A stretch of 39,542 bases of DNA from an uncultured Bacilli bacterium (GTDB taxonomy: Bacteria; Bacillota_I; Bacilli_A; RF39; UBA660). Below, one piece after another: positions 1 to 9,643 of this stretch (position 1 is its first letter; each line of letters opens with the position of its first letter). The position numbers were made by a program, and so were the translations under genes. The stretch covers positions 1 to 39,542 of the forward strand of contig CANQHF010000009.1 of NCBI GenBank assembly GCA_947623685.1. Reading direction: 5' to 3'. The notes beneath the pieces were generated by a model, which was given only the letters and a program-made list of their open reading frames with translations, ran no database searches and was not told where the DNA came from.

Positions 1-53
1 TCAATAATTCCTTTAAAATAAAGTATATCTTGTATATTTTTATTTAATGTCAT
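1..53 (-). CDS. possible partial ORF overlapping the BRO-like gene stop
   Basis: An ATG at 51-53 overlaps the TGA of the upstream BRO-like gene (50-52) in an ATGA arrangement and opens a frame that runs off the window edge; 17 codons are visible, starting MTLNKNIQDILYF. There is no Shine-Dalgarno site before it, so expression would rely on translational coupling. The fragment is too short to assign to a family. It could equally be a chance open frame beside a truncated gene. Confidence 0.25.
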   Translation of the reverse strand, partial: MTLNKNIQDILYFKGII

Positions 54-379
54 TTTGTACAAAACACTTCTGCTTTAGGGCTTGGGACTGATTCTATTAG
101 CCTTAAAATTCCTTTAGTATCTAAAGCATCTCTCAATCTTACTTTTCCATCTGAAGCCTTCATTTTCAACTGACTACATTTTGTAGTCAGTTCACTACCT
201 TCCTTTTTTAATCTATTTTTCAATACAGACCAATATTTTCTTGGCTCTACACTATTAGTCAAAGCTGAAATTACATCAACAACGCTAAAATAATAATCTT
301 CTTTTTCACTATCCCAAACGCTTATTATTTCTTTACCTTCAAATAGATTTGAGATTGTTTCTAATTTACTTTGATTCAT
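50..379 (-). CDS. BRO-N domain antirepressor-like protein, C-terminally truncated
   Basis: The 109-aa product matches the BRO family N-terminal domain: the pattern FSVVDVISALT, then a Y-W-x-x-L-K-x-R-L-K stretch, the ELTTKCSQLKMKASDGK core and a C-terminal RLIESVPSPKAE. BRO-N proteins of phages and bacteria usually continue with an FKxWLA segment and a second domain; here the frame ends nine residues after the conserved SPKAE start, so the protein is the N-terminal DNA-binding module alone or a broken gene. The start is well supported: AAAGGAGG lies seven bases before the ATG and a TTGCCA-17-TATAAT promoter lies just upstream. A shorter, decayed relative lies at 3689-3745. The role is inferred to be phage-type regulation. 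Confidence 0.7.
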   Translation of the reverse strand: MNQSKLETISNLFEGKEIISVWDSEKEDYYFSVVDVISALTNSVEPRKYWSVLKNRLKKEGSELTTKCSQLKMKASDGKVRLRDALDTKGILRLIESVPSPKAEVFCTK

Positions 380-401: not shown

Positions 402-430
402 ATTATATAACAAGAACATTTGTTTGGCAA
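402..430 (-). promoter_or_regulatory. sigma-A promoter of the BRO-like gene
   Basis: On the minus strand TTGCCA (425-430) and TATAAT (402-407) are separated by exactly 17 bases, with the ATG about 25 bases downstream of the -10 box. The same element, slightly diverged, lies at 3755-3783. Confidence 0.7.
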
Positions 431-9179: not shown

Positions 9180-9309
9180 CATAAATGATTTTTAAATGAT
9201 AAATATAAAATCCGCTATCACTTATATTATTTTTTTAATGTTTTTAGCATCATTACTTATAAATATGCAAGTGTGTTTTCTAAATTGTCATAAATTTTTA
9301 TAAAATATA

Positions 9310-9337
9310 TTGTTTTAGAACAAAAGTTTGATATAAT
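9310..9337 (+). promoter_or_regulatory. extended -10 promoter of the small peptide gene
   Basis: TTGTTT (9310-9315), a 16-base spacer and TGATATAAT (-10 at 9332-9337) point to a plus-strand transcript starting near 9344, about 55 bases before the ATG at 9400. Confidence 0.6.
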
Positions 9338-9399
9338 TAATTTGGAACATTTAATAGTTGGGTGATTACCGAGCTTCTTAATTGAAGGGAGGTGATAAG

Positions 9400-9483
9400 A
9401 TGTCAAAAAAAGATTTACTAATTTTCTTTTTTATTATCATTATCCTTTTACTTATAGTATTACTATTTGTAATTCTAAAATAA
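9400..9483 (+). CDS. 27-aa hydrophobic peptide, candidate type I toxin
   Basis: The peptide begins MSKKDLL and continues as an unbroken run of I, L, F and V to a terminal Lys: a short charged head and a single membrane-spanning helix, the form of TxpA/Fst/holin-like type I toxins. GGGAGGTGAT lies just before the ATG. The mRNA shows features typical of such genes: a 5' leader GGGTGATT able to pair with the AATCACC at 9487-9493, the same 3' element complementary to the AGGTGAT of the ribosome site, and a stable 3' hairpin. It is the only plus-strand gene between the tetR operon and the tRNA operon. A harmless small membrane protein cannot be excluded, and no antitoxin RNA is proven. Confidence 0.5.
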   Translation: MSKKDLLIFFFIIIILLLIVLLFVILK

Positions 9484-9487
9484 AAGA

Positions 9488-9517
9488 ATCACCTAACTCA
9501 GCAATGATTTAGGTGAT
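9488..9517 (-). terminator. hairpin at the 3' end of the peptide gene
   Basis: ATCACCTAA (9488-9496) pairs perfectly with TTAGGTGAT (9509-9517). A U-rich tract follows it only on the minus strand, so it could end an antisense RNA there, while in the plus transcript it can mask or compete with the peptide's ribosome site. Confidence 0.5.
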
Positions 9518-9531
9518 GCACATTATATGGC

Positions 9532-9567
9532 AACACTCAACATGCGATATTGAATGTTCCTTTTTTT
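9532..9567 (+). terminator. intrinsic terminator of the peptide transcript
   Basis: AACACTCAA (9532-9540) pairs with TTGAATGTT (9550-9558) with one internal mismatch, followed by CC and seven T on the plus strand. Confidence 0.55.
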
Positions 9568-9607
9568 ATTTTATGCAAGGAATCCTTGACATATTCATCA
9601 TAACATA

Positions 9608-9634
9608 AAAACGTACTTTTATCAAGTACGTTTT
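9608..9634 (-). terminator. intrinsic terminator of the tRNA operon
   Basis: AAAACGTACTT (9608-9618) and AAGTACGTTTT (9624-9634) form a perfect 11-base stem with a 5-base loop, ten bases after the last tRNA CCA end. Confidence 0.85.
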
Positions 9635-9643
9635 CTATCAATT

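Follow-up and report, generated by a model that had tools for sequence, protein, structure and literature searches.

A putative type I toxin–antitoxin module with a LexA-type box in its toxin promoter from an uncultured Bacilli bacterium

Described type I systems and the present locus

In the BsrG/SR4 and TxpA/RatA systems of Bacillus subtilis, the antitoxin RNAs pair at the 3′ end of the toxin mRNA, according to a review (PMC6562991). Here we describe a candidate system of this kind at positions 9310–9567 of a 39,542-nucleotide stretch of DNA from an uncultured Bacilli bacterium (contig CANQHF010000009.1; the whole stretch is referred to below as the window). The locus shares with BsrG/SR4 and TxpA/RatA a small hydrophobic peptide, a cis antisense RNA (here predicted) of about 100 nt or more that overlaps the mRNA 3′ end, a Shine-Dalgarno sequence (SD) held in structure, and a host of the same general lineage (PMC6562991). 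It differs in that the peptides of the present family are shorter (25–30 aa) and match no library model, and the review gives no SOS control for either B. subtilis pair (PMC6562991).

SOS-inducible type I toxins are represented in the literature consulted by tisB, symE, and dinQ of E. coli (PMC8309996, PMC6562991). The tisB/istR-1, symE/symR, and dinQ/agrB pairs combine a LexA-controlled toxin promoter with an antitoxin RNA, as would the present family with its LexA-type boxes, and the membrane peptides TisB (29 aa) and DinQ (27 aa) each form a single helix and have the size found here (PMC8309996, PMC6562991). These likenesses are of control and size, with no relation seen in sequence, and the E. 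coli systems belong to a different phylum; moreover, IstR-1 binds a standby site, whereas the antisense RNA predicted here overlaps the 3′ end (PMC8309996, PMC6562991). In C. difficile CD2517.1-RCd8 and related modules, the toxin and antitoxin genes likewise converge and overlap, occur in several copies, and belong to a Gram-positive host, but are reviewed as having Sigma B promoters where the present family has LexA-type boxes (PMC6563280). We found no LexA-controlled type I pair from a Gram-positive organism in the titles, abstracts, and passages of open-access literature consulted, which describe such coupling for E. coli only.

The initial annotation had likened the locus to TxpA/BsrG. As a statement about arrangement, this is supported by a conserved hydrophobic peptide, a conserved antisense promoter and terminator that overlap the mRNA 3′ end, and a covarying mRNA lock. 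The likeness does not extend to homology: the locus matched no family above cut-off in Rfam, Pfam, NCBIfam, or PADLOC, with neither peptide nor RNA assigned to the TxpA/BsrG family (11.3 bits with the Rfam BsrG model, for which the cut-off is 55).

The peptide and its family

We read the locus as a promoter, an mRNA of approximately 224 nt, and an ORF for a 27-aa single-helix peptide, bounded by the –35 element on its 5′ side and the T-run of the plus-strand terminator on its 3′ side (Table 1). A tetR-type gene (PF00440, PF17929) lies to its left, and to its right the minus strand carries six tRNA genes. Every sequence element named in the initial annotation was present when we read 9300–9570: GGGTGATT lies at 9360–9367, GGGAGGTGAT at 9387–9396, and AATCACCT at 9487–9494, facing TTTAGGTGAT at 9508–9517. 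Three further features had not been part of that annotation, namely the antisense promoter, the LexA-type box, and membership in a large family.

Table 1 Features of the candidate toxin–antitoxin locus, in window coordinates
Feature	Position	Strand	Evidence
Toxin promoter: TTGTTT (9310–9315), 16 bp, TATAAT (9332–9337)	9310–9337	+	Sequence; region aligned and conserved across copies
LexA-type box AGAACAAAAGTTTG, between –35 and –10	9317–9330	+	One mismatch against clade lexA/recA box GAACAAATGTTTG
Predicted toxin mRNA; 5′ 9344–9364 pairs with 3′ 9534–9560	9344–9567	+	Fold z –7.2, covariation, own-tail pairing
SD-covering stem: ATTACC (9365–9370) with GGTGAT (9391–9396) around a CTTC/GAAG stem	9365–9396	+	Fold; ACC/GGT to GCC/GGC exchange in relatives
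Hydrophobic 27-aa peptide MSKKDLLIFFFIIIILLLIVLLFVILK, candidate toxin	9400–9483	+	ORF from ATG at 9400; purifying selection
Predicted antitoxin RNA, about 110 nt, 5′ hairpin CAAGGATTCCTTG (9576–9588)	9480–9590	–	Model R1; fold z –4.7
Antitoxin terminator hairpin ATCACCTAA...TTAGGTGAT, then TTCTTTTATTTT on minus strand	9488–9517	–	Fold –14.2, z –4.9
Toxin mRNA terminator: AACACTCAA...TTGAATGTTCC, then T7	9531–9567	+	Sequence; conserved
Antitoxin promoter: TTGATA (9625–9620), 17 bp, TG-extended TATGAT (9602–9597)	9597–9625	–	Promoter scan

The hydrophobic peptide and ribosome site proposed at the outset hold up; the ORF lies behind GGGAGGTGAT and encodes a single hydrophobic stretch. Both the peptide and the DNA of the locus have homologs in relatives. 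Because a pattern lying in the antisense 5′ region guided part of the collection of the wide sample, family counts are no census; on that understanding, a nucleotide profile built from these homologs and run over the fetched loci identified 190 distinct copies, 134 of them near full length, with 85 different peptides. The small ORF is intact in 111 of the 134 near-full copies. Visual inspection sorts the peptides into about six types, which have little in common except a charged start and a single hydrophobic stretch. Among 24 distinct 27-aa relatives of type A, dN/dS is 0.18, indicating purifying selection, which a random ORF arising in AT-rich DNA would not show. In every measured type, synonymous changes outnumber non-synonymous ones (dN/dS 0.18, 0.17, 0.42, 0.61, and 0.13). 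The locus thus has the small hydrophobic protein under selection that marks a type I toxin–antitoxin system. Toxin activity is argued from resemblance, and a harmless membrane peptide would give an identical picture.

The host genome, a draft assembly of 65 contigs, contains six copies of the family, and some family copies stand in tandem. Of 39 host-family genomes sampled, 24 carry a match to a covariance model of the antisense RNA, as does one of 257 others of the class. The antisense pattern occurs in at least 113 stretches of GTDB contigs; among the matches listed, most titles name uncultured Bacilli, Tenericutes, or other Firmicutes-type MAGs. Searches of plasmid sequences returned partial matches only (E 0.1 or worse), and the pattern had no match in viral_contigs.

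Two observations concern the flanks. The conserved stretch ATATGCAAGTGTGTTTTCTAAATTGTCA lies 5′ of the toxin promoter in the window (9266–9300) and in 15 other copies (16 of 190). On the other side, a hairpin at 9608–9636 (AAAACGTACTTTTATCAAGTACGTTTT), probably a tRNA-gene terminator, includes the antitoxin –35, so that this sequence is common to the tRNA unit and the antitoxin unit; a similar arrangement occurs at host copy C25, beside tRNA-Thr.

The mRNA fold and the antisense RNA

The predicted toxin mRNA starts with GGAACATT and finishes with AATGTTCC followed by a T-run. Folding of 9343–9568, a check proposed in the initial annotation, gave –66.5 kcal/mol, whereas shuffled sequences gave –36.7 ± 4.2 (z –7.2), with both ends of the mRNA zipped together; the mRNA terminator hairpin by itself is weak (z –0.9). 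In a count of the window-derived fold over 34 diverse copies, pairing holds in 85.7% of cells. Two-sided changes occur in 158 cells, against 56.9 ± 7.5 in shuffles (0/500) and at most 43 when the fold was slid, in a test where a fold from one member favors true over slid versions and where shuffles do not preserve relatedness. Neither the number of pairs with two-sided change (20) nor that of further pair types (56) exceeded shuffles in these copies. In 99 of 100 copies, the leader pairs better with the tail of its own copy than with those of other types; at least 10 leader-to-tail pairs form in 99 of 100 predicted folds.

A second element of the fold covers the SD. The conserved partner of the SD is the leader ATTACC/ATTGCC: the window has the pair ATTACC/GGTGAT, where other type-A copies have ATTGCC/GGCGAT. 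Complementarity to the 3′ element had originally been ascribed both to a 5′ element and to the ribosome-site AGGTGAT. The 5′ sequence GTTGGGTG (9357–9364) pairs with CACTCAAC (9534–9541), and the ribosome-site complementarity is unconserved. We rejected AGGTGAT–AATCACCT pairing as a conserved feature, since most type-A relatives read GGAGGCGAT; this complementarity arises because of the extended SD sequence.

On the opposite strand, a predicted antitoxin RNA overlaps the predicted toxin mRNA. Model R1 matches the window here with an E-value of 1.9e-12, the window copy being among the model's 32 sequences. The hairpin at 9488–9517, previously taken to work in both directions, is present, but its T-run is on the minus strand only, with the mRNA terminating instead at a separate hairpin (Table 1); we therefore read it as a terminator for the antisense RNA. 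In 34 copies the tail of this terminator is T-rich (mean 7.7 of 10), and helix 5 covaries. A minus-strand promoter lies 3′ of the toxin terminator, with 17-bp spacing in 123 and a TG-extended –10 in 124 of the 127 scorable copies (of 134), and a –35 that is mostly TTGNNA. Because the collecting pattern stops short of the –10, this element was not selected by the collection. Overall, the conserved opposite-strand promoter and terminator predict a gene whose antisense transcript is complementary to the toxin mRNA.

LexA-type boxes in the toxin promoters

The host genome encodes lexA and contains four exact matches to GAACAAATGTTT, lying 5′ of lexA, of recA, of a gene that appears dinD-like from its translation, and of toxin copy C25. 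In a scan with a matrix built from 21 lexA promoters plus recA, superseding a three-site matrix, the toxin box of the window scores 16.6 bits, ranking third of 79,058 window positions, compared with 22–23 bits for the lexA and recA boxes; the LexA-type boxes of copies C25, C20, and C22 reach 19.0–22.1 bits. Across the family, a LexA-type box lies within 4 nt of the –10 in 52 of 134 toxin promoters (approximately 39% of near-full copies; shuffled mean, 0.075). The remaining 82 carry no recognized box, which counts against an SOS reading. The clade LexA box is thus found in toxin promoters of the family, with one mismatch in the window copy. Given the 52 boxes, and a window box that ranks third but is weaker, we regard predicted SOS control as well supported for many family copies and plausible for the window copy.

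Other sequences occupy some of these promoters. Thirty of the 134 copies (approximately 22%) have no recognized LexA-type box and instead show, at the –35, TTCG[AC]TTGT or a closely similar sequence (L064, L078, L079, L088, L098, L099, and others); elsewhere in the host genome, the TTCG motif has five matches, against five for a reversed control. In the tandem copies L067 and L071 of genome G029, a third operator-like imperfect repeat, around TTTACTCAAAGTGGAGTG, adjoins the –10. Separately, the best-scoring LexA-type box of the window (413–426, AGAACATTTGTTTG, 19.0 bits) lies just upstream of a Bro-N domain gene (50–379, minus strand), which for this reason may be SOS controlled.

Interpretation of the locus

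The locus is very probably a chromosomal type I toxin–antitoxin module, with putative SOS control in many copies. This reading draws on peptide selection, mRNA fold and covariation, an antisense promoter in nearly all copies, the antisense terminator tail, the six host-genome copies, and presence in most sampled family genomes (24 of 39); its link to SOS draws on the 52 of 134 LexA-type boxes and on the same box at host lexA and recA. We propose a model in which the mRNA would be silent from birth, its 5′ end zipping to its 3′ end and its leader stem hiding the SD. The antisense RNA of about 110 nt, made from the promoter just downstream, would overlap the mRNA 3′ UTR, and the duplex would remove or block leaked toxin mRNA, presumably through RNase III. 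In many copies, LexA would occupy the box between the –35 and –10 until lifted by DNA damage, whereupon the mRNA would exceed what the antitoxin can silence, and the single-helix peptide of 27 aa may act on the membrane, leading to arrest or dormancy.

Purifying selection on the peptide and lexA-type control beside many copies would also be consistent with an RNA pair governing a small, non-toxic membrane protein that serves the cell, for instance by modulating division or a membrane complex upon SOS induction, with its dose tuned by the antisense RNA. We consider this improbable, since a toxin–antitoxin module better explains than a dedicated protein why one RNA chassis bears several peptide types that look unrelated, why some copies have decayed (23 of 134 lack an intact ORF), and why tandem arrays occur. 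Much less probable still is a small MITE-like mobile repeat that spreads at tRNA ends, its inverted ends imitating the mRNA lock. Such an element would account for inverted ends, many paralogs, tandem copies, and a tRNA gene within 350 nt downstream in 42 of 134 copies (41 convergent), compared with 3.2% of random sites in the same loci. However, the ends match the predicted start site and T-run terminator and vary between types with pairing kept, the peptide is under coding selection, and promoters on both strands are conserved. Mobility could be compatible with a toxin–antitoxin module.

Beyond the module itself, we judge evenly poised a broader proposal, in which one antitoxin-RNA chassis serves interchangeable membrane toxins and operators (LexA-type, TTCG, and others), in up to a dozen or more copies per 1–2 Mb genome, and DNA damage in a Gram-positive lineage would trigger type I toxins as a battery. 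For probing toxin action, the family offers many RNAs, operators, and peptides to compare. Since the SOS-inducible type I toxins in the literature consulted are all from E. coli and the present family shows no evident relation to them in sequence, an SOS-linked family in uncultured Bacilli, if true, would suggest more than one origin for the coupling of membrane toxins to DNA damage.
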